From Diadema setosum (lineage: Eukaryota; Echinodermata; Echinoidea; Diadematoida; Diadematidae), in NCBI RefSeq assembly GCF_964275005.1, contig NC_092705.1:20054385-20118384 (forward strand): DNA of 64,000 bases, given 5' to 3'. Each line of letters starts with the position of its first letter. The first letter of the stretch is position 1. Made by a program: the position numbers and the translations under genes. The notes beneath the pieces were generated by a model. It made no database searches. It was not told the DNA's origin and saw nothing but the letters and a program-made list of their open reading frames with translations. Below are positions 18,256-62,529 of this stretch, piece by piece.

Positions 18256-19618
18256 AAAAAAAGAAGAAAAATAATAATAATAGTAATAATAAAAGGTCAT
18301 TTATATTGCGCAGCTACTATAATGATATACTCTACTGCGCATTACAAAATGACATGCATACAAGAAATTCAAACAGAAAATACACTACTTCAAGAGATGA
18401 CTTTTTAACCTGGCCTTAAGCTCATTAATTGTGACTGCTTGTCTTACAAACAAAGGGAGATTATTCCATAATTTTGGCGCAGCGTACAAAAATGCCCTGT
18501 CACCAAGAGTAACTTTTGATTTCCCCGATGGATATTTCAATAATGTTTGATCCCGTGAACTTCGGAGATGATAAAATGTTTGAAATGATGTTTTTAACTC
18601 TACAAGTTCCTGTATGTACACTGGTGCTGTACCATGAATGGCTCTATATACAATTAGCAGAGTTTTAAATATGATTCTCTGCTTTACAGGCAGCCATTGT
18701 AATGCACGTAGTAATGGACGACAATGAGAAAAACGAGGAGAATTACAAACTAATCTAGCACATGCATTTTGCACCCTTTGTAGTTTACCTAACTGATTAT
18801 CAGGTAATCCATAAAATAAACTGTTACAATAATCCAATCTGCTTGTGACAAACGCATGGATGATTTTTTCAGTACTTTCCCGTGTCAAATGCTTCCGAAT
18901 ATGTGCAATATTAAACAAATGATAAAATGAATTTTTACATACTTCAGAGATATGTCTGTCAAAAGCTAGGCGTGAATCAAACCACACTCCCAGATTCCGT
19001 GCAGAATCAACAGCAGGATAAATATCAACATCAATCACTTTCAGGCTTTCAGTGCGTAATTTTGAAACTTGCTGTTGAGTGCCACATATTACAAATTCAG
19101 TTTTCTTATCATTGAGTAGAAGATTGTTGGATAATAACCATTTGTGAAGATGCACAATACATCGCTCTATAATGGACACAGTATAATTCTCATTTGCTGC
19201 AGTAGGTGAAAAAGATATGTACAGCTGTGTATCATCCGCATAGGTATGACACATTACTTCTGGGAATTTGTGTTGGATTTCATGGAACAACCTACTAGCA
19301 TACAAAGTAAAAAGAAGGGGACCCAGGCAGGAGCCTTGGGGCACACCCCAGGGTACATCAAACTCCTTGGACATACTGGAATCGACCTGAACCCTCTGTC
19401 TCCTATCATTCAAATAGGACTCAAACCATGACAATGCTCTGTCAGTTATTCCAAAATGTGTTTGGAGAACATTCACAAGAATGTCGTGTCTAATTAAATC
19501 AAAAGCTGCACTCATGTCCAGTAGAACTAAAAATACCACCTGTTGCTTATTCATTGCTAACAGCAAATCATTCTTCACCTTTAATAGGGCTGTTTCTCTC
19601 CACTCAGAATAGCAACAG
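18256..19618 (-). mobile_element. CR1-like LINE, 5'-truncated, with intact RT ORF and 3' tail
   Basis: The minus-strand element covers a reverse transcriptase ORF, a short 3' UTR containing 'gcgcaatataaatgacc', and a TTA-type simple tail at 18262-18292. Short 3' UTRs ending in simple repeats are typical of the CR1/L2 group. The reading frame is open beyond the first Met up to about 19610 ('ETALLKVKNDLLL'), and similarity ends near 19618, so the endonuclease and N-terminal RT are missing. Confidence 0.85.
18405..19578 (-). CDS. Non-LTR reverse transcriptase (CR1/L2-like), 5'-truncated
   Basis: The annotated frame runs from 19578 to a stop near 18405 and encodes roughly 390-397 aa without an internal stop. 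Motifs seen: 'LLDMSAAFD' (about 19-27, RT motif A with the first catalytic Asp), 'GVPQGSCLGPLLF' (78-90), 'YADDTQLY' (113-120, catalytic YADD), then the thumb and CR1-type C-terminal region ending 'LKARLKSHLLK'. Known role: reverse transcription of the LINE RNA at the target site. The N-terminal endonuclease is absent, so the copy cannot act alone. The unbroken frame suggests a fairly recent insertion. Lies about 2.6 kb upstream of the EPSTI1-like promoter on the opposite strand. Confidence 0.88.
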
Positions 19619-20494
19619 TTTACGCCACATCAATTCTTACGCTTTTGAGCTTAGTTCAGTTTTCACACCTATCACAGTGTAGCCCCCCCCCCCCCCCCCC
19701 GAGGGCGCTACAATAGTTTTATGCGTAGGGCCTACTGATTTCTACAGAGATCAGTGGTACAGTATAAAGAGCCTGATTCGTTTGTGATGCCTTTTTTTCT
19801 TTCTTTTTTTCGTTTACCTATCATGTTTTTTTTTTTTTTTTTTGCCATTGCAGCAAGAATGGCGGTAACATTCGAGACATAAAACTTTCGCGGATTGCCG
19901 ACCATGATGGTGTATACAGCATTCTTTTTTTTTTCTTTTTTTTTTTTTAAATCACATAGGCATACCCGCTTCTCTTGGTACCATTAAATCGCCTGATCTT
20001 ATCTTCTATCCGTTCTCCGTTTCTTTTTCATAAACACTGATTACTCGGGGTGTACAGCCAATCAAGCTTGCTTTTAATGTAGGTCCCGTCATACTTCTCT
20101 TTGTTCAACCCCCGTTTCGATTTCGACCAGTTCTCATTATACAATGCTGTGTTATTACCATGTATATTGTTTGTTTTTGCCTACAAGGTAAAAGAACTTG
20201 TATTATATCATTTCTCATGTAATATTCATAAATTAGAAGTATGAAATAAATGAATTGAAATTGAAAAAAAAAAATAGAAAAAATGTAGGCATAGGCATTG
20301 GCGTTCAAGGCATTGTGATAGAAAAAACACACACAAAAAACAAAAAGAAAAAAAACAAACAAAAACACTTGCTTGCATTTTACTTTCGCGAATTTAATTG
20401 TGCATGGTTCCTCGTGAATTTCACGAAAGTTTTCTGCACGCGAACCCAATGGTTTCACAATGGGATGTTAATGGAAAGCATTGATCCTCCAAAG
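19619..20494. other. Intergenic with homopolymer runs
   Basis: Poly-C at 19683-19700, poly-T around 19826-19842 and 19923-19949, poly-A around 20265-20360. No gene recognised. Confidence 0.6.
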
Positions 20495-22452: not shown

Positions 22453-23333
22453 ATGAATGCACTTCGCACCATCGATGGGAAGTCCCAGGTCAAAGTCCCT
22501 TCACGAAAGAAGGGTGGCATTACAAAGTCTACGCCTAACAGGAACAACGTACGTTCAGTAGCGGCGACGTCGTCGTCCCATCTCGCATCGCAGGCCCGTA
22601 CAACAAACCGTATCGCTGGTTGTGCAACTGCTGGAGGTCGCGGGCGAGCTCCTAATGCGGATGTTGCAATCTCGTCGAGTAAGCAGAAAACTCTTTCGAA
22701 ATTCTCCACAGCAAGAGATGAAAAGACGCAGCTCGATAGAGGTGGTGTCAAGGATCAGAGTGCTAGTCTGAATAACGTCATTACACTTTCCGATCTGGTT
22801 GATAGAAAGAACGCCGCAGAACCGGCATCAAGTGCTCCTGACACCTGTGGAAACTCGCTGGCAGCCAGGATACAGAAACACTCACTTGTGGACAGGAGGG
22901 TGCCAGGTCGGCTCGAAGTCGATGGTCATCAAAGATCTCCGCTGAAAGTTGACTCAAATGGACGAAGGTTAGGCGGATCTACTCAATCCACTGACACTAA
23001 AGTTCCCGGCCTTTATGAGAGGAGGAGGAAGATTGATAGAACTAGATCTGTACCAAGTGACAGGTTAAACACATTTGGTGTTGGAAAAGCCATACGCACT
23101 ACCACCAGTGAGTCACATACTAAGTGCCAGAAAAGAAGTGTAAAGTCCACAGCTGACAGGGGAAGGAGAAAAACAATGGATGATGACCGAGACTCGAGCA
23201 GTTATCCAGCAGGAAGACTGTATTCATCTGAAGTTGGAAGAGACAGGACAAATCTTGGGTCGACACGAAGTCAAAGTACTGCTACTGGGGAGAGTCAACC
23301 AGTGGCACAGCAGCCTTCACAGGATGATTCACA
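22453..23333 (+). CDS. EPSTI1: EPSTI1-like exon 1 (residues 1-294)
   Basis: The frame is open from an in-frame stop at 22321. The first in-frame ATG is 22453. It encodes a Ser/Thr/Arg/Lys-rich, probably disordered segment. The donor is 'aca|gtatgc' at 23334, leaving two bases of the next codon. The reading frame runs on past the donor to 23382, but the coding similarity resumes only in exon 2. The antisense frame 22239-22751 is a shadow. Confidence 0.75.
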
Positions 23334-26300
23334 GTATGCACTCTGTAGATATTTCTTAATGTTTGGCTTTCAAACTCCGTAGTTTTTGTTTTGTTTTAAA
23401 TCTACGCAATATTTCCCAGAAACAGTAGAATCTTGCTTGTGATAAATGTTGTGTGTTTTTCAATGTGGAGGGGTTATTATTATTTAAAAAAAAACATTTT
23501 GAACGAGTACAGATTTTATTGTATATTTGCATTTAATAGCATCTTTCTGTCTTGTCACGTTACATCCATCAGGCTCAGAGAGACGCATTCACTGGCAGTT
23601 ATAGAGGTGATGACTGTTACATAATAAAGTCCTCTTGACTGGCACTTTTCTTTCATTACTTTATTACATCAAAATTTTGTTATAGCTGAATAATACCTGA
23701 ATTCTTACTTCGTTGTAATGAGGATTTTGTTATATTTGTGTTCGCTATAATGGGAGTGCACTGTATGCCATGTAAATTATTGTTATACCTAATGATAATG
23801 ATGATAATAATAATAATGATAATTATTATTATTATTATTTATTATTATTATTATTATCATTATTGAAAAAGTTCATTTTTAGGAAATCACTTGCCTGTGA
23901 CAATGGCACCAGCAGGAAGATCTCAACAAATGACCAGCTTTGCCTTTGGCATGTTTGTTCCTTCCTCTTCAGAACTGCCTGTTACAGGAAGATTGCACCA
24001 AATGCAAGCAAGAGGGAGAAACTTGTTAGTGGTAAGTTTAGAAATGAGATCATGGGTAAGACTTGATTTTCAGATTTGGAAATATTTACCCAAACAGGTA
24101 CAGCTTCTTCTTTCTCAAAAATTCATGCCCTCTTGTCTTTTAAAACATGATGACTTAAGGAAGATGCATTTAATGTTTTTTTTTTTTCTGCTATGAAATT
24201 GTTGATGCAAAGGATATGATTTTCCTGAGTTGTCTTGTTGTTGTTGTTGTTGTTCATTTTCCATCTGTGAAGATGGCTGGATAGCCCATATTCAGCTACA
24301 CTAAGCTGGTCTTCCATGGGGTCCAGTTGGATGAGGGGTGGGACCACTTCACCGGGTTAGACACCCTGCTCTTTGCGATGAATGAATGAAGTGGGATCTT
24401 TTACGTGCATGAGCTGTGACTCTCTCATACACGGGACCTCCATTTTATGTCCTATCCGAGGGACAGAGTGTTTTGCCTCTTGCTAGAGGGAACGGTATGT
24501 TTACACACAACATTGCTCAGTCCAGACTCGGGTTCGAACCCGGGCCGCGTGATCGTGAGGCAGACGCGCTGCCGACTGAGCCAACTCACCGCCCTAATGA
24601 CAGATATTCTATTAACAGGTATATGAAGTTACAATGTAGTATTCATAATTGTTTTTCAGGATAAAATCAGCAAGGAGAACATACTGAAAGTAGAAATAAC
24701 ATTTTCATATTATTGAGGAAATTACTGCAGAAAATCTGAGCATTTGAGAATGTACCATAATAGTAGTACAGATACCATACATATGCATGTCATCAATCCA
24801 TGGAACCCTGTCAAAGTATTGTGTCCAGGCTGTCTTGGTCATGGAAATGGGATGTGACTCTTTCATTTATGGACATTCATGAATAGTAGCGGATGGGGGG
24901 GGGGGGGGGGCGGGGGGGCCGCCGGGTGCGCACCCCTTCTTTATTTTTTGTTAAAACAAAAAAAAAAAAATGAGGGGGCTCATGATCCCCCTTTAAATTT
25001 TTATAAAGGTGCCTCCCCTTTACGGAATTCCTGGATCAGCGCCTGATGAATGTCACTCTTCTTGCATTTCATCACTCTTTACAAGGGTTGTTTAGGCCAG
25101 TAAATGTTCTTGTGAATACACAAATTAGACGCATACCAGGTTTATTCTTTCACACTGAATAAGTTGTATGGGACATCAAAGAGAGAATGGGGAAATAGGT
25201 GATGACATAGATGTTTTATTTTTTTTTTTTAATGTACCAAAAGAATGGTAGTTTCCATTGTATCTCTGCATTCCACAGTTAATAGTCATGGCTTTCATTA
25301 TGGGTGTGGTTTTGGTGTTGAATTTAGTGCACTTCCGGTGTTACTTCACCTGTTTCACTTTAAAGGTTATCCGAGGTGACTGCTTCTTGAAAGTAAATCT
25401 ATCAAAGTGTATTTTTATTGACATGTTTGATACAAGTGCCAGACAATCGAGGAAGGATGTCATGACCAAATATTGTGTTCCCTATTCGTAATACAAATGT
25501 AGCTATGTGATTCTGATGTTTTTCACCATGTATAGGGGCCAACAAGGAGCTTGAAGAATTTGAGAAATACAAAGCTTCAAAGAAACTGACAATTGTAACT
25601 GGACAAGCCCAGAGCACAGGTAAAACCCTAGGTTAATAAAAATGACCCTCTGGTAGAGCAGTGTGATACCGAAGAGGCTGTTGTTGAAAGTGAAGACCAT
25701 ATTAAATCATTATCTTATGTCTCTTTCATTGGTTTGTGAAAGAAAAATCATATGAAATAATCTTTTGTCAACTATTTAGCATCCAAATGACTTTACAATC
25801 CTTTGCTCCTTAGCAATCCTCATTGTTATGTTATTTCAAAACAAATGTTTGAAAGTATGAAGAATACAACAATTCTTCCTTTTTTGACTTCATGTGAAAA
25901 AAACAAAAATGTTTAAGCCGAGACGTACATGGAGTTCTCATATGCCTTCAGAATTGTCAAAATTTTCTTTTAGATATGTATGCATTTGTAATGTGTGAAA
26001 TAATGCTGAAATAACATGATTTCAGTTGGGTAATAACCAAAATGTGAAATATTCGCAAAAAAGGTTTGTCGGAATTACTATCATCTTGGAGCATCCCTGA
26101 TCGTTGTTGCTGTGTAATCTTTTATAATCGATTATTGATGATCAATAAGTTGTTCCACAACAGTATTCATCATTTATTTATCAATTTTCCACATAGTCTG
26201 AGGTTAATCACATGCCGTTTGTTGGAAAATATGATTTTTAGGGCACTACTGATCATCATGCAATATTCTACCTACCTATTACTACCTACCTATTATGGGT

Positions 26301-29300
26301 AGGGGACTTCAGGAATAAAAGTTGTTTACATACAATTGAAATTATTTTCCACATTTGATCTCAAAATACTCCAAAACAACCCATTATCCTGGCAAATTGT
26401 GTCAACCAGACAAGTTTCCTGGTAGACCCTTTCAATGTATTGCAAGCAAATTCCATATGGCAGATGATAAATTTTGAGCCCTTTTGAGAACTATGAGAAG
26501 GTCGGTAAAATATCCACCCCTTGGGCTGGTCAGCCTTCATTAAAAAATGTTCGGCAGCCTGTTGTGCTAAGTCCTGCAATCAGGAGCAAATGTTGCACAC
26601 TACACTCACAACCAACTTGCGTATAGATTATGCCAAAAGCCTAGAATACAATATTCTCTTGATTTTGTGTCTCACAGAAAGTCATGGACACCCCATTTAC
26701 ACAAAATCCTATTGGCTCCATAGGCCAGCTAGTTATTTGTAAGGGTGTTAATCTTTCCTTGCTTGTTGCTGTCTGGGCCTCTACATGAACATCTCCAGCT
26801 CATGGAATGTATTTTCAAGTGCTTTTGCTGATTTACACTGAAAGTTATTTGTAGAGTTCAGTGGTCACGAACAGACAAGAAAGACTAATGCTCACCACTC
26901 TTTCTGTATGGACTGGAAAATAACATTAGCAATGGTTTGTGTTCATGCTTTGACAAAGAACTATCACATGTATGCATTGAAGTCAATGAATTATGGTAGC
27001 TCTTTACAGTGTTATTAGATTATTTTGTTATTGTTTCACATGTCATGTCTCTAGTAAGATCCCTCTAGCTTACAACGTTTTGCTCTTAATTCATGTGAAG
27101 GAGGAGCAAAATCTATGGAGGATGCACGCAGAGAAATGGAAAAATTACAACGAAACAAGAAGTATGAACAGATTGTAAGTTTAACTCTTGACTTGGTTTT
27201 TTTTGTGTGTGTGTGTGTGTGATTTTAGGGGGATATGTATTTACCATTATCATTGCTTAGTGATAAAATTGCAGTCCTCTAGACCAAATCTGGAGCCAAA
27301 TTATCAAATTATCACCAAATTTGGCAGGTACTTTAGCTAGGCTGATATCTCGAATTAAGTTGTGCAAATGGGCTCCTTGTCCCACTGGGCAGCCCCCAGG
27401 CAACCCAGAACCCCAAACCCTGAAATGCTCTGATTAAATACAAAGTACATGTACATTGGTAATATATGTACAATGTACATGGGGGGGGGGGGGGGGCAGG
27501 ACCCTATTGGGGGCCACTTTTCACATGTGATCTTCTTTTAAAAAGTGCATGATCAAATTTTCTACAAACTTTAATAGCCTGTATTATTGCCAGTGTCATA
27601 GAACATGCATATACAGAGGCCATGCCTTCCTGGAAGTCCCCCTAAAGCTCCCCAAGTTTGCTACTGTCTTCTTGGGTATGATAGTCTGCAAGAATATGTG
27701 GAAGGTGAACTTGCGGTACTCATGTGAGCATGAGACCCCATGGTCTCTTGTTTTTCATGATTTAATTTCCAATTTGTGTTCAGTGACTGTCAGACTTTTA
27801 AGCCTTATTAAGTTAAACTTATGGTAATTACAGACCACTGTCAGCTACATTGTTTGTGATTTCATATATGACTATTTGAAAATGACATAACAAGCACCAA
27901 AGGAAACCTACATTGTAAAACTTTTCTAAGGCTTGTGTTGATAATTTGTTTTACAGAGAAAACGTGAAAAATGGCAGCAGGAAAAGAGGGAGAGAGAAGA
28001 AAGGGAGCTGAATGAAAAGAAAGCCAGGGCAAGAGAGCAGGTCAGACAACTTAGATCTCAGCCAGCTGCTTGATTTATGTCTTGTCTTATTTGTGTGTTT
28101 AAGTAAGTTAACCCTATTCTAACGGGGGGGGGGTCAAATTGACCCCCCCCCCCGACGTTTCGCGCCACGATTCCGCAACGCGCAAAGATTATGCCGCGTC
28201 GTTTCACGACTTTTTTCATTGAAGTCTTCCGCATATTTTGAGACCAAATTTGCGACGTCCGGGTACACTGTTCTGAACTTACGTAATGTTATGCATATGC
28301 ATGTCAACCCGAAAACAGCTCAAATTCATGATATCATACTATGTGCAAATTGAATGCAAATTGTGTTTTTTGGTTAAATTGATATAAATTAGATTGTTTC
28401 AACTTTTAACCATTGAAATTAATCAATTCTAGTGTAGATAAGCCTGAAAAAGTGCCTACAACAAATGTTGGCAAAAGAACAATAGAAAACAAAAGGACGG
28501 AAAAAACAATAAAATACATAAGAAATTAGCAAAACAATTAAAAACAAAAGAAATTGATTCTGATTGTGCTATTTTTTTTACATGAAAATTGTTTGATATG
28601 TCTTGAGGAATTCTGACACAAAAAATTAGCAATACTTCAGTCTTTTTAATGGAGTTATAGGTGAAAATATGATTTCATGCACAAATTTGCATAATTTATT
28701 TATTAAAGATAGAAAGGCAATATTTTTCTATTGTATGACCATGTAATCTTGTAGTCAACATCCAGCTCTATCTTAAGGCAAAATTTCGCGGCGATCGCAC
28801 GATCGGTGGCTGAAATCTGAAGGGGGGGGGGGGGGTCAAATTGACCCCCCAGTAAAAACTTGGTCTCAAATAGCCCAGTTAGAATAGGGTTAAGTATTGT
28901 TGTTGTGTATTTGTTTGTTTGTACATTTGTTTATGTGTTTATTATCATTTTTCCTTTTCTTTTCTTGGGGGGGGGGGGGGATTTGATAATTTATATCATT
29001 CTGAATTCTAGATAGAGCTGCATCAACCCTGATTCAACAAACGTGATTTAACATACCAGGGCCCCGTTGCTAGAAACTTTGCGTTTAAACGCAACTTGCA
29101 ACTGATTGTCACTGGCCAATCAAAATCATTGTTGCATGCATGTCTTCTTAATAGGGCAGACCCTGAGCCAATCAGAGTGGTTGTTTCAAAATTAGCAATT
29201 ATTTGCAATTGATTGCAACTTTCTTGCAACGGCGCCCAGGTGTAATATCAAACAACAGGTCTTCAGGACTGTAACTGGATGTATGATAAGCAAAAAATTA

Positions 29301-32300
29301 TACAAAATTTGTACCAAGGGATATATAAATTCTAGGCTAATTTTAATGAACAAAGTCAAGATAGGTGATTACTCTAAAGGGCTTTTTACACTTGTAAATT
29401 TTTGCTTAGCCCCGGACCAACGGTGGGGCTAAGGGGGGGGGGGGGCCTTAGCCCCACCGTTGGTACGGGACTATCCTTAGCCCACTTTCTGTTTACACTC
29501 GTTTATGCCAAAGTGGGCTAGCCCCACCGATAGTACGGTACTATCTGGCCCTGCAAAATAGCAGGGGTTAGCACCGCAATTGCGGTGCTAGCACCGCAAT
29601 TGCGGTGCCAAGCAAGTGAGTGTAAACAGAACGAAAAAATAATCCTGGGCTAAGCGACGGAGATGAAGTCCGACCCTCACTGACCGATCAGAAACGAGGT
29701 AATCAAGTGCTGCCGGTGCGTGCATGTACGTGTACAGTACACAGCGTAATTATGAATATTCATGTGGTTGGGAAAGTCCGGGGCTAAGAAATACGAGTGT
29801 AAAAAGGTCAGTTTTCTCCTTAGCCCCGGACAAGAGATAGTACGGGACTAATTGGTGTGTGTAAAAAGCTGAAAAAATTGGTACGGGACTAATGATAGTC
29901 CTGGGTCAGAGAAAGTCCGGGGTTAAGAACACAAGTGTAAAAAGCCCTTAAGTGCCTGATGCTTGAAATTATCCCTTGTGTTTAAGATGTCTGCCTGCCA
30001 ACTTCATCACTTCATGTTTCACAACGTAGTAAAGATCTTGGCAGATTGCTTGTCAAGTGACGTAGGCCTGTAACATAAATTTTGTAGGCGACAGACTGTA
30101 TCTTAATGAATGATCCTCAAATGCCAAGCTGTGGACAGTTAAGCCCTTTTTACACTTGTGTTTCTTAACCCCGTACTTTCTCTGACCCAGGATTATCGTT
30201 AGTCCCGGACCAATTTTTTCAGCTTTTTACACTCGCCAATAAGCCAGTTCGGAGTTAGCTCGTGGGCACATTGGTACGAATGACCTTTCTTTTTTCTCAG
30301 TTGGTTAGAGGCACTTCACTCGTTTTCAGAGCGACATAATGCATAAGCTTTATGTAACAATTTATGGGATTCATCAATCCCGTTCAAACAAAGAATAAAC
30401 TTGCGTAGACCAGATGAGCAGAATGATCTGTCAATTCACACTTGAGAAAGCATCCATTTCATTATTTTGCATTGGATGTATTGACAATCTCTTTCTATTG
30501 ATATTGCCAAATACCACTTTTGCTGTCAGGTGAATGTGCTGGCAAGCGGTATTTATAAGGATTACATGAATAATCATTACATGACAGATGCTTATCCCAG
30601 TAAATTTAAAAACCAACATGCCTGTTGGTCCGAATGACCTTGTTTCTGCTCATGCGCAAAGTGGAACTCCGAACTGGCTTATAAATCCCGTACTAAGCTC
30701 TTGTCCTGGGCTAAGGAGAAAACTGACCTTTTTACACTCATATTTCTCAGCCCCGTACTTTCCAAACCACATGAATATTCATGATTACGCTGTGCACTGT
30801 ACAAGTACACGCGCGCACCGGCAGCACTTGATTACCTCGTTTCTGATTGGTCAGTGGGGGGTCTGACTTCATCTCCGTCGCTTAGCCCAGGATTATTTTT
30901 CGTTCTGTTTACACTCGCTTGCTTGGCACCGCAATTGCGGTGCTAACCCTGCTATTTTGCAGGGCCAGATAGTATGGGATTATCGGTGGGGCTAGCCCAC
31001 TTTCGCAAACACAAGTGTAAACAGAAAGTGGGCTAAGGAAAGTCCGGTACCAACGGTGGGGCTAAGGCTCCCCCTTAGCCCCACCGTTGGTACGGGACTA
31101 AGCAAAAATTTGCAAGTGTAAAAAGCCCTTTAGTTATACTCTGTTTGGACTTACAGGAGGGTCACATGTTTTTCAATGTTCAATTTGGACTTTTTTTTCA
31201 ATGTTTAGTATACACAGCATATGTATTTCTTTCAAATTAATGACCATGAACCGTGTGCTTACCTCCACTTATCAATCTGTCTATGTACACCACAATGCTG
31301 TAGGCTCTTTAAATTTCTATTTGAACTCTTGTCTGAATCCAAAATATTCCAGACAAAGAAAAACCAGCGTCTGAGCGAAGAGAGAGCAGCAAGGTCCCGT
31401 CACGATCATGCAAGGTAATGGCAGTACAACCTGCAATGCTGCTTTGTGGATGGTGTGGATGAACATTACATGATAAATGACTCAAGCAGTGAATGTGCCA
31501 TATAGAGAGAGGATTTAGCTTACACATATTCTTTGTTTTCTTTACTGAGGTTTTGTTGAAAATCACATTTCTTCCATTTACTCATACTCCTAGTTTTGCA
31601 TTATTTATGTTTTGTTCTTTAAAACAAACGAAAGAAACATGTAGCAAAAACAAACAATAAGAAGCTGTGTGCCTATCCTGAAAATGGGTTGTTTCTTATT
31701 TTGTTGTGCTTAAAGGTACTAGCCCACATTTGCAAACCCACGAAAATCAAAACTGCATAAAACAGGTCCAATATGACTTCAAGTACAAGTTATAACAGTA
31801 ACATACCTCACCTGTCGCTCTTTGTCTAGATACCATTCGATAAAAGAGAGAAAATCATCGTTTTAAAATCAATTTTCAAACCGGGTCAACCCGACCCAAA
31901 ATCGAATTACGAGCGCGGGCCATAGCTACGTACATTGTACATGTAACACGTACGTGGACCGGAGCTAGTGAGCGTTATACGCATGCGTACGGATTACGGT
32001 GCATTTTCATTTATTTTTATGAAAGTAATGGACTAATTGGAACGAAATTTTGCACAGGTGTTACTGCAATCATACCCAAACTCCATACTAACTATGAGAC
32101 CAATTGCTGCAGGTTTACAAATGTGGGCTAATACCTTTAAAGGGTATCAGTGATAAGACAAATGTTACAAGATATTCCTCACACAATTTAGGTGTTCTAG
32201 CTGTAGCAACATACAATAATAGCATGCAATTTCTTCTAACAAACACCTGATTTCAAAAATTTCATGCAGCAAAAGAGGCAGTCGGCTCCAATTTGCGAAA

Positions 32301-35300
32301 ATTTCATGCCTTGAAAATATCTTGCTTTACAGTAACTTCATTCATTTACTTCTTTGCATGGTTTCCATTTAACACATGTATTTGTAAAATTCTGCACATA
32401 ACAGAACTAATGAAGATTTCTTCAAGAGACTGGAAGACAAGTCAGCATGTCCAGGTAATGTAATCACATAGGGCGTTTTCACATCAGCTCGATAAAAATC
32501 CAAGCTCGAGATTTTTTTTGCGATCGCAAATTAGCGCGCTATTTCATTTCCTGTTCACATCAGCCCGAACATTATCAAATAGCACGCTAGTTCGCATTAA
32601 TTATCCTGCTACAGTATTTCGGAAATTCCCCGAGTTGGACTCGAGAAATTTTCTCGATCAATTAGCGCGCTAATTTGTATTCACATTATCAAATAGCGCG
32701 CTATTTCGTGATCGGGTTAATTTCTCAAGTCAGAAAATAGGGCGCTATTTCAAAACATCGAGCTGATGTGAAAACGCCTATACACCCAAATTCACAAAGG
32801 TGCTTTAAATTTAAACCATGGTTTATGCATATTTCTTTTGCATAGATAGGATTGACAGATTATGTATGCCAACAGATGTCATGTGACAACTGATGTCAAA
32901 GGTACGCCCATTTCATGCTTATTTTAGACCATGGTCTAAAGTTGTACCATGGTTTAAACCACCTTTGTGAATTTGGACCATTATGTTAAACATCACCTGT
33001 TTTTGAAGGATACATATTTTTACAAGGCTTTTATTGTCTCACACAGCAGATCCCTGGTTGCACAGAAAATGTTAAATACAATGTACCTGTACATTATACT
33101 GCAGTTTACTCTGTAAGGTTGTCTGTATGTATGTTAGGTATGTTTTATTTTTTTCAATTTGTCATAGCATTAAAATTTATGACATGAGCTATGCACTTTT
33201 TTTTTGGGGGGGGGGGAGTGGGTGGGGGGTATGGTATTATAGGGTGGCAAATGTAGGAAGTCTGTTGTAAAATAATTGCGAAACATGGGAAACCTCACAG
33301 TATTGTTTCCTGTGTGGTTTGCCAATCCTCTTCGTGCCTGTTGACAGCTAGTTACTCAATCAGACTGCTGTGAGATCCAAAGATTGCTTGATCCCATGGA
33401 ATTGTAGGAGACATTTTTACAGAATTTGCTCCTCCACCCCAGAGATAGGCATATAAGGACAAGGCCAACCAGACATAGATGTGAACACAACCTTTTCATA
33501 ATTAGCATGTCACTAAACTTCACAGAACAAGGAACATTGCAAGTAAAGCTAATTAGGCCAACATTTTACTACTGCATAACAAATTTAATGGTACATTGTA
33601 TCTGTTATGCCATTTTGACTCTTGTGTCCTAGTAAATGGTGATAGAATTGCTTCAGCTAGCTATTTCACTGAAACAGATGACTCTTGACTTAAGCAGTAA
33701 GTTATCGTGTGTGACAATATCATCAAAGAAATAGTACAGATGTGAGTGCAGCAAACCAGTGCATATCAAAGGATCATTGTGCTAGCTGAAATAAAGATTA
33801 AATGAGCTTTGATTACAACCACCTGTATCTTACGGAAATCAAGCTTGCTTGTTGGAAATGAATTACAAAGCAGCTGAAACATGCAGGAATAATACTTTGA
33901 ATATTTCATGTGGTATGGAATTTTTATTTAGCATGTCATCAGCAGAGACATGTAAATATGATGGGACCTGTTTGTATGGTTATAGTCTGGGTGCCAGAGG
34001 CTGAACCTTGTTTTACCGTCCACCCAATGTTTTTTGATGGTTTTGCCCTATTTCGGGGGTGCTGAATCCGAATCTGGATGATGCAACTCTTCCATCCTTG
34101 AGGGTTTTGAGATATTCAAGATGGCCGCCAAAATGGCCGCCAAAACCGGAAATTCCCACGTATTTCCTTCTAAATGGTGAGATATTGAAAACAATTGATG
34201 GTTTTACCCTATTTCGAGGGTGCTGAATCCGAATCTGGATGATGCAACTCTTGCATCCTTGAGGGTTTTGAGATATTCAAGAAAGCCGCCAAAATGGCCG
34301 CCAATTAAAACTGGAAATTCCCATGTATTTCCTTCTAAATGTTGAGAAATTAAAAACAATTGATGGTTTTACCCTATTTCGAGGGTGCTGAATCCGAATC
34401 TGAATGTTGCAACATTTGCATCCATGAAGTTTTTGAGATATTCAAGATGGCCGCCAAAATGGCCGCCAATTAAAACTGGAAATTCCCATGTATTTCCTTC
34501 TAAATGTTGAGAAATTAAAAACAATTGATGGTTTTACCCTATTTCGAGGGTGCTGAATCCGAATCTGAATGTTGCAACACTTGCATCCATGAAGTTTTTG
34601 AGATATTCAAGATGGCCGCCAAAATGGCCGCCAATTAAAACCGGAAATTCCCACGTATCTCCTTCTAAATGGTGAGATGTAGAAAACAATTGATGGTTTT
34701 CCCCTATTTCGAGGGTGCTGAATCCGAATCTGGATGATGCAACTCTTGCATCCTTGAGGATTTTGAGATTTTCAAGATGGCCGCCAAAATGGCTACCAAA
34801 ACCGAAAATTCCCTCGTATTTCCTTCTAAATGGTGAGAAATTGAAAACAATTGATGGTTTTACCCTATTTCGAGGGTGCTGAATCAGAATCTAGATGGTG
34901 CAACTCCTGCATTGTTGACGATTTTGAGATATTCAATATGGCCGTTAAAATGGCCGCCCAAAATGGAAGTTCCCATGTATTTCCTTCTAAATGGTGACAA
35001 TTTGAAAGCAATTGGTGGTTTTTATCTTATTTTGAGTGTGCTGGATCCGAAGCTCAGGATACAACTCTTGCATCCTTAAGGGTTTTGAGATGATAAAGAT
35101 GGTTGCCAAAAATGACCGCCCAAAACAGAAATTCATATGTAGACCCCCTATTTCCTTTTAAATGGTGTAAAATGTACAACAGTTGGTGGTTTTACACTAT
35201 TTTGAGTTTGCTGAATTTGAAGCTCCAGGATACAGCTCTTACTTCCTTGAGGGTTTTGAGATGATAAAGATGGCCGCCAGAATGGCCCCTAAATGGCCGT

Positions 35301-37407
35301 CAAAAACGAAAATTTCCATGTAAGCCCTATATTACCTTCTAAATGGTGTAAAATTGAAAACAATTGGCGGTTTTACTCTATTTCTTTTTTAAGGGTTTTG
35401 AGATGTCCAAGATGACCGCCAAAATAACTGTCAAAAATTGGTAAATTTTAGGCCCTATTCAGCACCCTCGAAACTTGGTTGTTGAAATTCGTCCATTCTT
35501 TAGGGTTTTTAGACGTCCAAGATGACAGCCAAAATAAGTGGCAGAAATTCCGATGTTAATATATTCTTCTTAATGGTAAAAATTTTAAAATAAATTGATG
35601 GTCTTACCCTATTTCGAGGGTGCTGAAGGTTTTTGAAGGTTTTCGGACATCTATAAATGTCCTGTATCAACGGAAACTCCTTAACATTTTCTTATACTGA
35701 AATGGTGAAGTATTGTGCTCTAACGCGAAGCGGGGGATTAAACCCATGCAGGGTGAAAAGCAATAATTCGTATTCTTAAATTCAACTCAGTTGAGCGAAT
35801 TTGTCAAATCAGCCAAAAGTTATTGACATCCAAAATGACTGTCACAATGGTATTGTAATATGCTGAGATATTCTGATATGTCTCAAACGGAACTTTAACA
35901 CGTACTGGGAAAAAAGAAGAAGTGATATTGACATCATACTGAAACGTACAAACACAAAGAAAGATACGACTGAAAATGTCTTTATGCATAATTGTTATAA
36001 GATAATGCTTGTGGTCGCCAATAATATGGCTCCACAGATGTGAAGTTAATCCTTTCGTCTATCAATAGAGTAAAATTAAATTATGGCATGTTGGTATTTG
36101 GTGTTGAAACTTGTCTTGTATTCTGACGAGTCTCGCCTTGTATTCTTATGAAACTTGTCGCATATTCTGATTAGCTCATTTGAAATGGTTGCATCCATGA
36201 CCACTATAGTAGATATCAATAAGGGTAATTTCAAAAGCACTCTGCGCGATTATGATATTCGTAAGTACTGGATTATCAAGTATTACCTTCCATGTTGTCG
36301 TTTGTTTTTTTATTCAGTTTTTTTTTTTTTCACGGCGTGTGATTTGTCCGTCCCCTCGTGTGCATTATTGGTGTGTGTTTGTAATAGATTATATATATAT
36401 ATATATACACTCAGCAAAAAAAGAAAGTAAACGCTTTTTCATGTTTAGATTTCTCATAGAATATTTGGCTGAAAGCTAATGTATTGTATATCATATTGAA
36501 GGTAATTTAATTGGCTATCAACCTGGTAGGTCAACAAAATGGGAAACTTTACGCATAAGTGAACACTATTGTTTATCTCTTCCAGGGCACAAAAGTAAAA
36601 ATTGCAAAACTGAACAAGTTGTCATTCATGTGTATGTCCTCTTCCATGGAACAATAAGAACAAACAACAAATTTCACACACAAAGAAACATGAATTAAGT
36701 TGCAAAAATAAACCTTTGATCTCTGTGATATCTCTAAAGCCCAAAAGATCAATGAAGGCTAAAAATAATGGACGAAAATAAAGCATCTTATGTCAAATCT
36801 AAATTCAAATGAATAGAGAAGAGAAATTAAAAATTAACAAAAATGGTAGAAATTTGAGCTTTTTTCAAATTAAGAAATTGTAAATGTTTAGTTCTTGAAA
36901 TTGTCACATGGACTCTTAAATCACTAGAATAAAAGAAATAAGTGAAGAAATTCAGTTTATTTAATCATCTTTATGCTTATCATTCCCTATGTCATTTGAA
37001 ATTTGACTTGACAGAAAGTTCTTATTTTTCCCCTTTAGTTTTCCACTTTGTTTTTCTTAGAGTTTGTAAAGAGATAAAAAGAACAAAAACTTATTTTTCC
37101 TATTCAATTCATGTCTCTCATTGTGTAAAACTGGTCTTTTGTTGTCAATGTTATCGTGAAGGGCATTTTGCAAATGAAAGAGATCATGTCAATTTTTGCA
37201 ATTTTTGATTTTGTGCTTTGGAGGACAAAAACGAATGTGCTCACTCATGCGTAAAATTTTCCTTTTAATTAACATATTAGCTTAATAACCAATGTAATTA
37301 TCTTTAACATGGTATATAATATATTGATTTTTATAAAAATCTTCTATGAGAAATATGACTTCGAAAAAGTGTTTACTTTCTTTTTTTGGTGAGTGTGTAT
37401 ATATACA

Positions 37408-37451
<44 letters not shown>

Positions 37452-39557
37452 CCATATACATAATGTTAAATCATATTGAAGAAAAAATTGAAGCATAACT
37501 AGAAAAAATTGAAGCATAACTATAAAAATGTCCCACTCGTGTCTTCAACAATGTCATCAAGACCACCAATATAAACCAAATAACCAATTTGAGTGTTCAT
37601 GGATGAAGAGATTAAAACTGCTCATGGATTAAGACAGGTAATGTTGGGTAATTTCAGTACACTTCTCTACCTCACTATCACAATATGATTTAGATGAACA
37701 TGTCTTGTCCATTAATTGTTAGTGTTCAAAACTTATCCATTATATGTAGAGGAAACAGTGTAATCTTGCAATTATTCAACCGCATCTGTAGTCTTGAAGG
37801 GTTCATTGCTGGCACCCTTGTATCGTACCAACTCAAAGATATCCGATAGAGCTGGTTTCACTGTGTATACAGCAAGTTCAAGCTGTGCCATTGACGAAAA
37901 CCTGAAATCTTTCAGTCAAAAAACAAAAAAATGGGGTAATGCCATCAATTGTTATCAATTTTTCACCATTTATAAGAAGGAAATACATTAGAGTTTCCGT
38001 TTCGGCGGCCATTTTGGTGGCCATCTTGACTATCTCGAGGTGCATCATCCAGATTCGGATTCAGCACCCTCGAAATAGGGTAAAACCATCAATTGTTTTC
38101 TATTTCTCACCATTTAAAAGCTAATACATAGAAATTTCCAGTTTTAATCGGCGGCCATTTTGGCAGCCATTTTGGCGGCCATTTCGGTGGCCATCTTGAA
38201 TATCTCAATACCCTCAAGGATGCAAGGTTTGCATCATCCAGACTCGGATTCAACACCCTAGAAATAGGGTAGATCAATCATTTGTTTTCAATTTCTCACC
38301 ATTTAGAAGGAAATAATGGGAATTTCCGGTTTTAATTGGCGGCCATTTTGGCGGCCATCTTGAATATCTCAAAAACTTCAAGGATGCATGAGTTGCATCA
38401 TCCAGATTCGGATTCAGCACCTTCTAAATAGGGAGAATCATCAATTATTTTCAATTTCACACCATTTAGAAGGAAATACGTGGGAATTTTCGGTTTTGGC
38501 GGCCATCTTGAATATCTCAAAACCCTCAAGGATGCAAGAGTTGCATCATCCAGATTCGGAATCAGCACCCTCGAAATAGGGTAAAACCATCAATTGTTTT
38601 TAATATCTCACCGTCTAGAAGGAAATACGTGGGAATTTCTGGTTATGGCGGCCATTTTGGCGGCCATCTTGAATATCTCAAAACCCTCAAGGATGGAAGG
38701 GTTGCATCATCCAGATTCGGATTCAGCACCCCCGAAATAGGGTAAAACCATCTAAAAGCATTGGGTGGATGGCAAAGCAAGGTTAGGCCCAAAAAGTGGC
38801 TTTGGCACCCAGACTATAAGGGATTTGATGTCAATGTAGCAAATCCTATAACCTCCTTTATACCCTTCCCAAAGCTAAAAATACTCTTGTATGAAATGCC
38901 AAATGGAAAGCTGAGCTTGGCTCAGTTGAGATGACTGAAAAGTCAAAGTGCTTTTGTAGTTTGCATTTACAGACCAGTCCACCAGCACCAAGTATTTGAA
39001 AGATCGAGTAGAACAAAAGCGTGGTGAAATTACATTTGTACATCTGGTATGCATGATAGTGGATGTTGTGGTGTAAAGGAGACGGGGTGAAACTGCAGCA
39101 TTTTAAACCATCCACTACTACTTGTACGTTGACCAATGAACCTATCAATGGTCTTGTATCAATACACGTGCCACTACCCAACTAAGTGTACATGTAGGAA
39201 AGAAAATTTGAACAAGTTGGTTGGTCCTTAACTGAACCAGCTACTGTAGGTGTTAAGAGCTATTCAGCATTTGGATCAATTTTTTATCTATCATTTTTTT
39301 TTTCACCATTTTCATCTTCTTGAAAACAAGTAGCTGCATGAAGGTGAAATGTGCTATGAAGGTGAGTGATAGACCTAATAATATGGGTCTTTTGTTTCTT
39401 CTTTCATGCAGTGTCTTCAGGTGGCCCTGATGTACGTTACAGCCAAGAACTTCAGTCTCTCCAGGAGATGTTCCCAGACAAAGACCCTGCCAAGCTACAG
39501 AAGATGCTAGAACTAACCAATGGGGATGTTAGTGAGGTCACTGAACTTTTGATGTGA
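22453..39557 (+). CDS. EPSTI1: EPSTI1-like protein with C-terminal CUE domain, 8 exons, about 479 aa
   Basis: Hand-built model: exons 22453-23333, 23973-24031, 25536-25619, 27101-27174, 27957-28040, 31353-31414, 32405-32454, 39412-39557. The summed CDS is 1440 nt (479 codons plus TGA) and every junction keeps the frame. Residues 1-294: basic, Ser/Arg-rich, no recognised domain. Residues 295-432: EPSTI1-like core. 'TACYRKIAPNASKREKL' aligns with human 'TSAYTLIAPNINRRNEI', 'ELEEFEKYK' with 'ELANLEKWK', 'FFKRLEDKSACP' with 'FLSKLNTESPDRSAC' (from memory). Between them is a Lys/Arg/Glu-rich coiled coil (about 343-425). Residues 441-479: CUE domain with 'MFP' (451-453) and the terminal di-leucine (477-478). 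Known: vertebrate EPSTI1 is interferon-induced and linked to macrophage activation; CUE domains bind ubiquitin. The fusion suggests a ubiquitin-linked adaptor (inference). Introns are packed with MITEs; the last is 6.96 kb and holds a 4.8-kb foldback. Confidence 0.85.
23660..23763. mobile_element. Fragment of pogo/Tigger-like MITE
   Basis: The right end 'ataatgggagtgcactg' followed by TA is the inverse of the terminal repeat of the 40787-42095 element. 'cttcgttgtaatgaggatttt' also matches. The left end is missing. Lies in intron 1 of the EPSTI1-like gene. Confidence 0.65.
23785..23870. repeat. ATT/ATG trinucleotide microsatellite
   Basis: Runs of 'ataataata' and 'ttattatta' in intron 1 of the EPSTI1-like gene. 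Confidence 0.85.
23973..24031 (+). CDS. EPSTI1: EPSTI1-like exon 2
   Basis: The acceptor follows a textbook pyrimidine tract ('gttccttcctcttcag'); the donor is 'g|gtaagt' at 24032. Encodes the family signature 'TACYRKIAPNASKREKL'. A farther-upstream acceptor at 23882 is also in frame and would add 30 residues, but has a poorer pyrimidine tract and less resemblance to the family. Confidence 0.85.
24236..24598 (-). mobile_element. tRNA-derived SINE
   Basis: Read on the minus strand, the element starts with a tRNA-like head. An A-box 'tggctcagtcgg' (about 24577-24588) and a perfect B-box 'gggttcgaaccc' (about 24531-24542) are correctly spaced. A body follows with the word 'cacgtaaaagatcccac', then a tail of (AAC)n (plus-strand 'gttgttgtt' at 24236-24256). 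About 360 bp, intron 2 of the EPSTI1-like gene, opposite to its transcription. Confidence 0.88.
24885..25045. mobile_element. hAT-like MITE, copy 1 (reverse)
   Basis: The inverse complement matches 47397-47559: 'gatccaggaattccgtaaa', 'ggaggc', 'tttaaaggggg', then 'tttt...aacaaaaaataaag' and a G/C-rich end with 'ggatccgc'-like words. G and A homopolymers have expanded inside. Intron 2 of the EPSTI1-like gene. Confidence 0.7.
25046..25535. other. EPSTI1-like intron 2, remainder
   Basis: No repeat or gene recognised apart from a poly-T near 25220. Confidence 0.5.
25536..25619 (+). CDS. EPSTI1: EPSTI1-like exon 3
   Basis: Acceptor 'tgtatag' ends at 25535; donor 'g|gtaaaa' at 25620. Encodes 'ANKELEEFEKYKASKKL' and 'GQAQST', matching the EPSTI1 helix that follows the IAPN signature. 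Phase 1 on both sides. Confidence 0.9.
25620..27100. other. EPSTI1-like intron 3
   Basis: AT-rich intron of 1.48 kb with no recognisable element. 'ctacctacctatta' repeats occur near 26268-26297. Confidence 0.5.
27101..27174 (+). CDS. EPSTI1: EPSTI1-like exon 4 with tandem acceptors
   Basis: The sequence 'gaaggaggagcaaaa' offers three AG acceptors three bases apart (ending 27100, 27103, 27106), all in frame. The exon encodes 'AKSMEDARREMEKLQRNKK'. The donor 'att|gtaagt' is strong. Coiled-coil forming. Confidence 0.85.
27175..27956. other. EPSTI1-like intron 4
   Basis: Contains a (GT)n run at 27203-27221 and a poly-G at 27481-27496. The 27250-27740 stretch is more GC-rich than its surroundings and may be an old repeat, but I could not find its ends. 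Confidence 0.4.
27957..28040 (+). CDS. EPSTI1: EPSTI1-like exon 5
   Basis: Acceptor 'gttttacag'; donor 'cag|gtcaga' at 28041. Exactly 28 codons, phase 0 both ends, encoding the highly charged coiled-coil segment that begins 'RKREKWQQEKREREERE'. Confidence 0.9.
28112..28889. mobile_element. piggyBac-like MITE with TTAA target duplication
   Basis: TTAA at 28108-28111 and 28890-28893 directly flanks the perfect ends 'ccctattctaac' and 'gttagaataggg'. A subterminal 'gggggtcaaattgaccccc' palindrome lies at each end. TTAA targets and CCC-starting ends are the piggyBac signature. 778 bp, no transposase. Intron 5 of the EPSTI1-like gene. Confidence 0.88.
29056..29240. mobile_element. 185-bp MITE
   Basis: Ends 'ccagggccccgttgc' and 'gcaacggcgcccagg' are inverted repeats, followed inward by 'tagaaact' against 'agtttctt'-like words. 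Similar in style to the element at 56863-57024. Contains two 'ccaatca' words. Confidence 0.8.
29375..29950 (+). mobile_element. Palindromic element family E, copy 1 (uninterrupted)
   Basis: Ends 'taaagggctttttacactt' and 'aagtgtaaaaagccctta' are inverted repeats. Inside are many small palindromes such as 'accgcaattgcggt' (twice) and inverted 'ttagccccaccgttggtac' words. About 575 bp, no ORF. A second, oppositely oriented copy lies 190 bp downstream. Intron 5 of the EPSTI1-like gene. Confidence 0.88.
30139..31132 (-). mobile_element. Palindromic element family E, copy 2 (inverted, interrupted)
   Basis: Same family as 29375-29950 in the reverse direction, from 'ttaagccctttttacactt' to 'aagtgtaaaaagcccttta'. 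Removing the 442-bp insert at 30240-30681 gives about 552 bp, the same length as copy 1. Confidence 0.88.
30240..30681. mobile_element. MITE nested in palindromic element E
   Basis: Ends 'taagccagttcggagtt' and 'aactccgaactggctta' are perfect 17-bp inverted repeats, with further inverted words inside ('tggtacgaatgacctt' against 'tggtccgaatgacctt'). It splits copy 2 of element E at a point where copy 1 is continuous ('ccaattagtcccgtac' in the matching sense), fitting insertion at TA. Confidence 0.88.
31353..31414 (+). CDS. EPSTI1: EPSTI1-like exon 6
   Basis: Acceptor 'atattccag'; donor 'ag|gtaatg' at 31415. Encodes 'TKKNQRLSEERAARSRHDHA', aligning with the vertebrate 'EEKKRLQENLRREAFREHQ' region. 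Confidence 0.88.
31710..32140. mobile_element. MITE with 'ttaaaggta...gcccacatttg' ends
   Basis: The left end 'ttaaaggtactagcccac' and the right end 'gtgggctaatacctttaa' are inverted repeats extending inward through 'atttgcaaacc' / 'ggtttacaaat'. About 430 bp. 'atgtgggctaatacctttaa' sits just before exon 7's intron portion. No coding capacity. Confidence 0.85.
32405..32454 (+). CDS. EPSTI1: EPSTI1-like exon 7
   Basis: Acceptor 'cataacag'; donor 'g|gtaatg' at 32455. Encodes 'TNEDFFKRLEDKSACP', matching the vertebrate 'AEFLSKLN...SAC' block. This is the last segment that resembles vertebrate EPSTI1. Confidence 0.88.
32469..32780. mobile_element. MITE with 'gcgttttcacatcagctcgat' type ends
   Basis: Left 'tagggcgttttcacatcag' and right 'ctgatgtgaaaacgccta' are inverted repeats of about 24 bp. 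The interior is full of 'tagcgcgcta' palindromes. Begins 14 bp after exon 7. Confidence 0.85.
32785..32979. mobile_element. MITE with 'ccaaattcacaaaggtg' ends
   Basis: Left 'ccaaattcacaaaggtgc' and right 'cacctttgtgaatttgg' are inverted repeats that continue into 'tttaaaccatggt' / 'accatggtttaaa'. About 195 bp, directly next to the preceding MITE. Confidence 0.85.
32980..33980. other. EPSTI1-like intron 7, first part
   Basis: No element recognised; poly-T/poly-G run at 33198-33230. Confidence 0.5.
34036..35700 (+). repeat. Tandem array of 161-165-bp units, left arm
   Basis: The word 'gatggttttaccctatttcg' recurs near 34036, 34197, 34362, 34527, 34692 and 34853, then with increasing divergence to about 35640. 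Spacings are 161, 165, 165, 165 and 161. Each unit also carries 'gtgctgaatccgaatctg' and one or more 'aagatggccgccaaaatgg' words. Units near the terminus are best conserved. Confidence 0.92.
36407..37398. mobile_element. Tc1/mariner-like MITE nested in the foldback
   Basis: Ends 'cactcagcaaaaaaagaaag' and 'ctttctttttttggtgagtg' are inverted repeats; they continue into 'tagatttctcatagaa' / 'ttctatgagaaatatga'. About 990 bp, embedded in a (TA)n run, fitting TA targeting. No intact transposase seen. Confidence 0.8.
37399..37445. repeat. (TA)n microsatellite
   Basis: TA dinucleotide run to the right of the nested element; a matching shorter run lies to its left (36391-36406). Confidence 0.9.
37985..38760 (-). 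repeat. Tandem array of foldback units, right arm (inverted)
   Basis: About five units in the reverse orientation of the left array: 'cagattcggattcagcaccc' and 'gaaatagggtaaaaccatc' recur with similar spacing. Some spacings are shorter through deletion of parts of units. Confidence 0.9.
39412..39557 (+). CDS. EPSTI1: EPSTI1-like exon 8: CUE domain and stop
   Basis: Acceptor 'tttcatgcag' ends at 39411; TGA at 39555. Encodes 47 residues, nearly all of them a CUE domain: 'QELQSLQEMFPDKDPAKLQK' followed by 'LELTNGDVSEVTELLM'. MFP and the terminal LL are the conserved ubiquitin-contact positions of CUE domains. No close AATAAA follows, so the 3' end was not placed. Confidence 0.9.
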
Positions 39558-47559: not shown

Positions 47560-49554
47560 TATCTGTACTTTTAATTGAAATCTGTAACACATGTATGTTA
47601 CCACATGTAGTAAGACTTACGTGCCCCCCCCCCCCCCCATATGCCAAGGTTTAGGTCAGAGAGCAGCTAAGCGTGAGATGAAGCGCCCGCTCCGCCTGAG
47701 GGAGCAAACCGTCGGGGGGGGGGGGGGGGCGCAGTGTGTACATCCCTCCGCTTGGCATTTCGGTATACCGAACACAAAATAACGGTTTTGTTTTGTTGTG
47801 GTGCGCCAAAAGGATCATGTCTGGTTCTCTGTTTGAAAAAAAAAATTAACAAAAAGCAACAATCTTCAACAATCTAAACTTCACCTACTGATTATACCAT
47901 ATACAACAAAAGTCATTACCGTCCAGAAATAATATGCACAAATGTCAATAAGAGCTGTATGCTGTGAAAGTGTTTGAAATTACACCCTCTTTTGTGGAAA
48001 GCCGATTTTATCCGACAAATAAAACTGATATGATATATCTTCAAGTGTATTTCTTTACAAACAGATGCATGAATGCCAGATTAGTGCCCGGACGCTTCCA
48101 GTTGAGAAATGTTTATTTTATTTCACCATTCTTTGCGCAATTTGTATATATGCACATCCCCCTTCTTTAACAAGTTAGTATGTACCGTTTATTTTTTTTT
48201 TGTTTTTTTTTTTTTGTTTAACAAGTAAGATGACGAAAAGTACTCTCACAAAAACATATTATCTTCCTTAGAAAGTGGCTGGTCGTAATGGAAGGAGACA
48301 TGAATCCACTTCAGTGTCTTTCTATTTGTGGGGCACATCCAGTTTGGTACATGGTCTACTCCAATCTTGAGGCGGCATCGAACATTAGACATGTTAGATC
48401 AAAGGAAATAAGACTGTGACTCTTGAGCCTCTTTGAATGTATCCAGGGTTGCTAAAGTGTTGCCACTGCAATATCAAATGGCCCCACCATATTTACGACT
48501 GATAGCATTGCCAGGTACTCGTTTCTCCACCAACTATATCCCGCCAATTATCATTAATTTTGATACTATATCCTGATTGCATCTTCGCCTCTTGGTTCTC
48601 GACAAAATGTTTTGGATTTTGTGTAATGTATGTCTGTAACCCACGTTGACTTACAGTTCCAAGCCTCATGATCTTCATTAGGATTACAGAATACAAAGAG
48701 AACGGAAAGCAATATTTTTCATTGGACTACTTGTGACTGCTTCTTAAATAACCATGGTAATTGCTGGAGAATTAACACGCATGTGACAAGTGCTTCAAAC
48801 ACAACGTAATGTGACTAAGAAGTGAAAAAAATAGTTTTATGAAACATGAAACTTGATTAGTTGCCGTGATAATTTTGTGAAAATTGGCAAGGAAGTATAA
48901 CCTTAATTCTTCTGTTATTGGATAGATCAAATCTGGCTGTGAGAAATATAGTTTGGTCGAATTTGGCTGTAATAGACTGAGTTTGAACTTGAAGACTACT
49001 GATATACACTATTATTATGGCGATCGTGCCGCCTGCATGTCGCGGCAGCTATCTGAAAAGCATGCAGTAATCAAGCACTGAGCCCCCGACTGAGCCGCGA
49101 GTAATTCTCACCTTTTCTGAAGGAGAAACACGTTAAAACAACGCATAAGATGAACTCATACATTTTCTTTATTTTGCAATTGCACAAAAATCATGTTTTT
49201 GAGAATAAAAATCACAATTGCCTGTTCAACTAGACAGGAATGGTGTTAAAAAACTGTTTTACAAAAACAATGAGTTTTGTTGCAAATATTTTTGTCTTTA
49301 TAGTGACATTAAAGAATTGACCAAAAAGGAAGAAAAATGAGAAAGTGAGAAAAATGTGTCACTGTTAAATAAAGGGGAATTCCTGAGTCTCGTGAAATGA
49401 AAATGGATGTAGGACAGTTATATAGGTGTAGCAGCAATAATTAATACCAGATTTAAAGAAAGATGTATAGATAAAATTTTGTACATGCAAAGGAATGATA
49501 GTTTATAGTATATGATGATAGTAATGATAAATTCTTCCAAATGATTTTAACGAC
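47560..49554. other. Intergenic with homopolymers
   Basis: Poly-C at 47624-47638, poly-G at 47715-47729, poly-T at 48190-48215. No gene recognised. Confidence 0.5.
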
Positions 49555-61920: not shown

Positions 61921-62529
61921 CTACCCTTCTCCTCCCTGCACTTTGACTAAGTTTTGCACTTTATCATGCGTTACGTTACAATACACGACAGTCGACTGCT
62001 TGCGGGCCCATTTTGACTCTCTTTCAATAGCGGAGTCAATCGCTTGGTTAACAACACGATCAGTTTTGACCCTAGATCTGGTGGAAGCGAGAGATTGAGA
62101 CTGACGGTAAATGTCACATAGGATGGGAAAATAAATTAACAGATGTTTCTTAAATTCTTTGCAGCTTGACCATGATTTCATTGTGAACGAACTCGCATAC
62201 TTCGGCTGGTTTGCCACTAAAACAAGCGAACCCAGACATTTATGAGGTTCTTCTTTGATTGAACGAGTACGTCCAGTGCCGATTGAATATTCAATCTCTT
62301 TTGGGACGCCACCGCAGATAGAGAGACTGCAGTATTTGGAAGGCTTTAGCAGGAGTCCCATTGATGCTGTGCTTGAGTGCAATTTGTCAATTATTTTTTG
62401 ATGTTGTACTTTGTTGTTCGTAATCAAATTAAAATCGTCTGCGTACGGAGTTGTTATGATTCTGGTGCCATTCAGATCAAACCCCAGTCTTTCCTTCATT
62501 TGTCTGAGATACATAACAGAACATAACAG
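61921..62529 (-). pseudogene. LINE reverse transcriptase, C-terminal part (YADD type)
   Basis: Read on the minus strand from about 62526: 'YLRQMKERLGF', then 'TPYADDFNLIT' (the catalytic YADD, near 62440), 'GLLLKPSKYCSLSICGG' and 'KCLGSLVLVANQ', then the C-terminal region to the stop at 61921. These are RT motifs in the order expected of a non-LTR element. The motif set, with QGDP on the other side of the insertion, suggests an R2/CRE-type or related clade rather than CR1 (inference). The upstream part of this open frame (62530-62778) is MITE sequence, not RT. Confidence 0.8.

Follow-up and report, generated by a model that had tools for sequence, protein, structure and literature searches.

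Introduction

Whether a gene of a sea urchin may run on from the core of an interferon-response protein into a domain of the ubiquitin-binding type, and from where such a domain would have been obtained, are the questions raised by a locus of Diadema setosum. The window analyzed here is the whole stretch of 64,000 nucleotides from assembly GCF_964275005.1 (contig NC_092705.1, positions 20,054,385 to 20,118,384 of the forward strand), and the gene under study occupies positions 22453-39557 of its + strand. EPSTI1 is known as an interferon-response gene whose molecular function “has rarely been investigated” (PMC11234217). Computation shows the exon structure of the urchin gene, the homology of its middle part to EPSTI1, and a CUE domain with intact MFP and LL elements. 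It is likely that these belong together, i.e., that a single gene of D. setosum specifies an EPSTI1-family protein continuing into a C-terminal CUE domain which would bind ubiquitin. This is a new domain arrangement within the known EPSTI1 family and no new kind of system; by itself, the fusion overturns no known view. Our searches of the open-licence PMC literature gave no report pairing EPSTI1 with a CUE domain (papers in which both names occur were unrelated, judged by title) and none on EPSTI1 in echinoderms or sea urchins.

Exon Structure of the Gene

Joined together, eight exons of the + strand form in the predicted model one frame of 479 amino acids with one stop, the phases being compatible and GT-AG borders being present at every intron. 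The start, the end, and the number of exons were taken over from the original prediction, and the rest was derived independently by searching 22.4-39.6 kb for open frames, splice sites, and EPSTI1-like motifs. Splice-site scoring by an ad hoc matrix, with both ends required to reach 3, gave 8 candidate rows, and exons 2 and 3 were the only ones of the gene among them. By themselves, these scores indicate exons 2, 3, and 8 only (the donor of exon 1 scored -0.9 vs 5.7 for the acceptor of exon 8), and exons 4-7 were located via frame and EPSTI1-like motif. Exon 4 has alternative in-frame acceptors at 27101/27104/27107, which lead to products of 479, 478, and 477 amino acids, respectively. The longest form coincides in 479/479 residues with the NCBI entry “uncharacterized protein [Diadema setosum]”, and the NCBI gene model has the same exon joins, so that the eight exons and the continuous 479-residue frame proposed at the outset are borne out. 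Poly(A) RNA-seq of D. setosum has been produced for the ERGA assembly (PMC13264686).

The coding part of exon 1 (22453..23333, +) begins with the start codon and supplies residues 1-293, a basic product (pI 10.7) predicted to be disordered, with low pLDDT, for which a Pfam scan at E<=0.01 gave no family. In BLASTP alignment, about 60 residues of mouse Epsti1 precede the block shared with the urchin protein vs 293 in the urchin exon; against the mouse protein, the expectation that a basic N-terminus of about 290 residues goes beyond vertebrate EPSTI1 thus holds. Exon 2 (23973..24031, +) encodes an EPSTI1 block with IAPN (residues 301-304) and begins the helix 305-332, the remainder of which belongs to exon 3 (25536..25619, +) with the EPSTI1 block ANKELEEFEKYK.... 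Exon 4 (27101..27174, +) carries the block GGAKS...KYEQ, exon 5 (27957..28040, +) the EPSTI1 coiled coil within helix 345-427, and exon 6 (31353..31414, +) the end of this coiled coil, including residues 400-410, which weakly resemble a VIM. Exon 7 (32405..32454, +) encodes RTNEDFFKRLEDKS, the counterpart of the mammalian terminal motif RVNNAFLDRLQGKS, and exon 8 (39412..39557, +) is the terminal exon with the CUE domain and the stop codon. The whole-protein predicted model, built from a 15-sequence alignment and having a mean pLDDT of 58.5, leaves residues 1-295 disordered and places helices at 305-332 and 345-427 (83 residues) and three helices in 438-478.

Intron 7 (32455..39411, +; 6957 bases, phase 1) contains two arrays of tandem repeats of about 160 bases: a 165-base unit in 7.7 copies at 34034-35293 and a 161-base unit in 3.7 copies at 38172-38752. 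The consensus units of the two arrays look, by eye, mutually reverse-complementary.

EPSTI1 Core and Terminal CUE Domain

The NCBI-derived record of the urchin protein lists Pfam PF02845 (CUE) and PF28372. PF28372 is, by eye, the sole domain among the 120 of 332 EPSTI1 matches listed in a homologue search with a human EPSTI1 query sequence; 107 of these 120 are named, all of them mammals, and 13 are nameless. Our own Pfam scan of the urchin protein at E<=10 gave no PF28372, the model probably being newer than the Pfam copy in use. A profile made from 16 of the 120 listed proteins matched residues 258-427 with 37.8 bits (bias correction 26; E=1.9e-9 for 20,000 proteins). Of 2000 control sequences whose core was shuffled within windows of 20 residues, the best reached 6.1 bits; reversal of the protein gave -1.5 bits. 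By this measure the middle of the protein is EPSTI1-like, as had been proposed. BLASTP of the urchin protein against the 120-protein set matched every member at E<=10, the lowest E being 2.8e-13 with 30% identity, where E values are computed for that set only. The blocks common to the urchin and mammalian proteins are IAPN, the ELxxxEKxK helix, GGxxS, KYxQxxKRE, and the long coiled coil.

Exon 7 is identical in 7/14 positions to the last motif of mouse Epsti1, with a score reached by 3/20000 shuffles. The earlier mouse copy of this motif was ruled out as the partner (1930/20000 shuffles vs 3 for the last copy). In the other four proteins compared, too, the higher score fell to the last copy, and the multiple alignment had set exon 7 against the first copy instead. 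After the terminal motif, 116/120 of the listed EPSTI1 proteins start their tail with PGG, and it is there that the urchin protein has its CUE exon. As read from these alignments, the urchin gene holds an EPSTI1 core devoid of the mammalian middle segment, with exon 8 in place of the mammalian tail.

The CUE domain proper (39438..39551, +; residues 441-478) was recognized by Pfam both in the whole protein (E=6.5e-6, 26.1 bits at a cut-off of 21.1) and in a 47-residue piece encoded by exon 8 (31.7 bits). Searches with EPSTI1 and CUE profiles had been suggested along with the original prediction, and both returned scores. The signature elements MFP (451-453) and LL (477-478) are intact, and AlphaFold2 run on the 47-residue piece without alignment predicted three helices (10-19, 25-34, and 39-46) with pLDDT of about 94. 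For this model, CUE and UBA domains rank highest in Foldseek and in a second aligner; the fold match supports the assignment, short of proof. Profile score, motifs, and the predicted three-helix model together confirm that the last exon encodes a CUE domain. MFP and LL are described as essential for ubiquitin binding of CUE domains (PMC6688830), and, judged from these motifs, binding of ubiquitin by the exon 8 domain is quite probable.

Origin of the Terminal Exon

The original prediction took vertebrate EPSTI1 to have no CUE domain and suggested that the ancestral protein may have been fused to one and that vertebrates lost the last exon. The first assumption stands for the 120 listed matches: a Pfam scan of these and the urchin protein, with filters that discard most matches above about 0.1, gave CUE in 1/121, this one being the urchin protein. 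Weak matches to 34 families were also obtained (TAF8_C among those listed, in 14 members with best E 0.0029), and the non-CUE ones are taken as noise. No hidden CUE was found in mouse Epsti1: when its tail and its middle segment were aligned to the CUE, 1169 and 1027 of 2000 shuffles, respectively, reached the score. A second fusion was sought with two queries. Residues 290-479 at E<=0.01 gave 1/866 candidates, and residues 130-335 joined to 398-479 (scored over 294-335 plus 398-479) at E<=10 gave 1/34; in both cases the single hit was the urchin protein itself. Since such a search depends on words of 5 residues common to query and target and restricts how long a candidate may be, the absence of further fusions is weak evidence.

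Addition of a CUE exon to EPSTI1 on the way toward Diadema by exon shuffling, with a TOLLIP-type terminal exon as the best, insecure donor, is one explanation of the fusion, with a probability somewhat below one half. The CUE search of the urchin's own genome (912.7-Mb assembly, best candidates only scored, introns ignored) pointed to four places, exon 8 being one. Among the three others, the best match to exon 8 was the CUE of a locus at C5:41497144-41500266, named TOLLIP by the PDB match 1wgl (E=1e-12) and scoring 71, which 0/5000 shuffles reached; the frame that precedes this CUE exon (L005:7222) has what we take to be TOLLIP-like C2 sequence. The second-best place, which we assume to be CUEDC1-like, scored 56 (0/5000 shuffles), and the third, presumably AMFR/gp78-like, scored 24, no better than chance (558/5000). 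The TOLLIP exon resembles exon 8 in its borders too: phase-1 entry agrees with the donor GGAG|GTGGGT and with an acceptor rich in pyrimidines, and translation ends three residues past LL, compared with phase-1 entry and a stop one residue past LL in exon 8. These TOLLIP splice sites were picked by eye rather than from transcripts, with alternative GT and AG sites present, and equal intron phase is expected by chance in about one case of three. Identities to exon 8, counted from the alignments, are 14/36 for TOLLIP vs 13/35 for the CUEDC1-like CUE, the first residues of the latter being probably intronic; with such near-equal low values TOLLIP is an insecure donor, and the event may be old. Moreover, an intron-blind search limited to best candidates will have missed other CUE genes. 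A terminal exon of TOLLIP type may, on these data, have been captured, though phase agreement is cheap and identity low. Together with the lack of a second fusion in the protein searches, they are explained by a terminal CUE exon newly acquired in the lineage of the urchin at least as well as by an ancestral fusion.

The opposite course, in which the EPSTI1 of a deuterostome or earlier ancestor possessed the CUE exon and vertebrates lost it, appears rather unlikely. In its favor is the position of the junction after a complete EPSTI1 core: since exon 7 corresponds to the last conserved mammalian motif, vertebrates may simply have lost the last exon. In the mollusc Aplysia, a transcript has been labelled EPSTI1, which implies that the family may be old, with its authors advising caution about orthology established by statistical means (PMC8195618). 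Against this, no other fusion was found and mouse Epsti1 retains no CUE-like trace. As no second fusion came to light and a TOLLIP-like exon is available as a possible source, the view of an ancestral fusion with vertebrate loss, put forward originally, is not favored.

Possible Role as a p97/VCP Adaptor

The published data on mouse Epsti1 provide a frame for considering what the urchin protein may do. Mouse Epsti1 is reported to bind VCP, for which residues 71-180 are required, to use residues 181-314 in part for binding STAT1, and to favor the proteasomal removal of ubiquitinated pSTAT1 in a VCP-dependent manner (PMC11234217). For the VCP 1-187 region, the same paper cites the earlier work of Li 2014, and its discussion speaks, less clearly, of VCP binding via N- and C-terminal domains (PMC11234217). 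By BLASTP, mouse residues 71-180 align with urchin residues 305-409, so that the conserved part is the part reported to bind VCP and the differing part is the one reported to bind the client. By analogy with the reported mouse interaction, it is conceivable, with chances a little under even, that p97/VCP is bound through its N-terminal part by the urchin EPSTI1 core. The CUE domain, standing at the site of the mammalian tail, within the region implicated in STAT1 binding, would take up ubiquitin-tagged clients in the manner of the CUE and VIM pairing in gp78. Core and CUE may then act, as we tentatively propose, as a p97 adaptor delivering such clients. The loose form of VIM is RX5AAX2R, and residues 400-410, inside the predicted helix, fit it. 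They do not fit the stricter RX5AAERR (PMC5559722).

Several observations qualify the reading of this protein as a p97 adaptor with a ubiquitin-binding CUE. The loose VIM arose by chance in 448/20000 shuffles of residues 295-430 and in 741/20000 of the whole protein, so the VIM-like stretch, easily made by chance, is a weak hint only. The predicted fold of exon 8 had no Foldseek match at E<=0.001, and its 47-residue sequence had none at this level among PDB chain sequences, the best being the ubiquilin-2 UBA (0.047) and the TOLLIP CUE (0.1). The top Foldseek match is CUE1 of SMARCAD1 (E 0.26, four further matches having E values less than about twofold away), and the protein holds the 83-residue predicted helix. 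These two points suit a CUE domain that binds a protein other than ubiquitin, as SMARCAD1 CUE1 does with the KAP1 coiled coil, and that might be packed against a coiled coil, be it that of the same protein or that of a partner. The intact MFP and LL, both tied to ubiquitin binding (PMC6688830), make such a role improbable; as SMARCAD1 CUE1 keeps similar motifs, their presence is not decisive. An artefact of the gene model, with exon 8 coming from another transcript and EPSTI1 transcripts ending after exon 7, would accord with intron 7 being the longest of the seven and containing tandem repeats, with a frame that on reading into it meets a stop after five residues (436 amino acids), and with an NCBI model that may be predicted without reads, but is most improbable given the fitting phase, the acceptor of exon 8 with its score of 5.7 and its pyrimidine tract, an open frame that has no ATG upstream of the Met in MFP of the CUE, and identical exon joins in the NCBI model.

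An EPSTI1 relative with a fused domain of ubiquitin-binding type suggests a ubiquitin-dependent p97 adaptor role and shows the EPSTI1 family to be present in an animal that is not known to have interferons. One may go further and suppose that the basic role of EPSTI1 is that of a p97/VCP adaptor, self-sufficient in the urchin by virtue of coiled coil and CUE, the latter possibly obtained from TOLLIP by exon shuffling, and recruiting STAT1 in mammals via a different C-terminus. This broad version is doubtful; if true, the urchin protein would be a natural experiment explaining the action of mammalian EPSTI1.

Genomic Surroundings

Upstream of the gene, on the opposite strand, a 196-residue frame at 12735-13325 (-) belongs to the Spot 14 family (Pfam Spot_14, 85.7 bits). 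Retroelement pieces are located at 18385-19629 (-), 49531-50454 (+), and 61921-62778 (-); their frames gave reverse transcriptase matches of 78.8 and 24.7 bits, the latter below the cut-off, and an endonuclease match of 37.1 bits.

Comparison With Known Systems

With mammalian EPSTI1, the urchin protein shares PF28372, the IAPN, GG..S, and KY.Q..KRE blocks, the long coiled coil, and the terminal RxNxxF..RL..KS motif. It differs in possessing the N-terminal exon of 293 residues, in lacking the middle segment by which the two copies of the motif are separated in mammals, and in having a CUE domain where mammals have a short tail. TOLLIP likewise has a C-terminal CUE encoded by a terminal exon with phase-1 entry and is the best-scoring of the three other CUE places found in the same genome, but it has no EPSTI1 core and, unlike the urchin protein, carries a C2 domain ahead of its CUE. 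The pairing proposed here for the urchin protein resembles that of gp78/AMFR, in which a CUE domain is combined with p97 binding through a VIM (PMC5559722), and the CUE of gp78 ranks among the best structural matches. Unlike the urchin protein, in which nothing of that kind was found, gp78 is a ubiquitin ligase of endoplasmic reticulum-associated degradation. The presumed AMFR-like CUE of the same genome aligns with exon 8 at chance level only.
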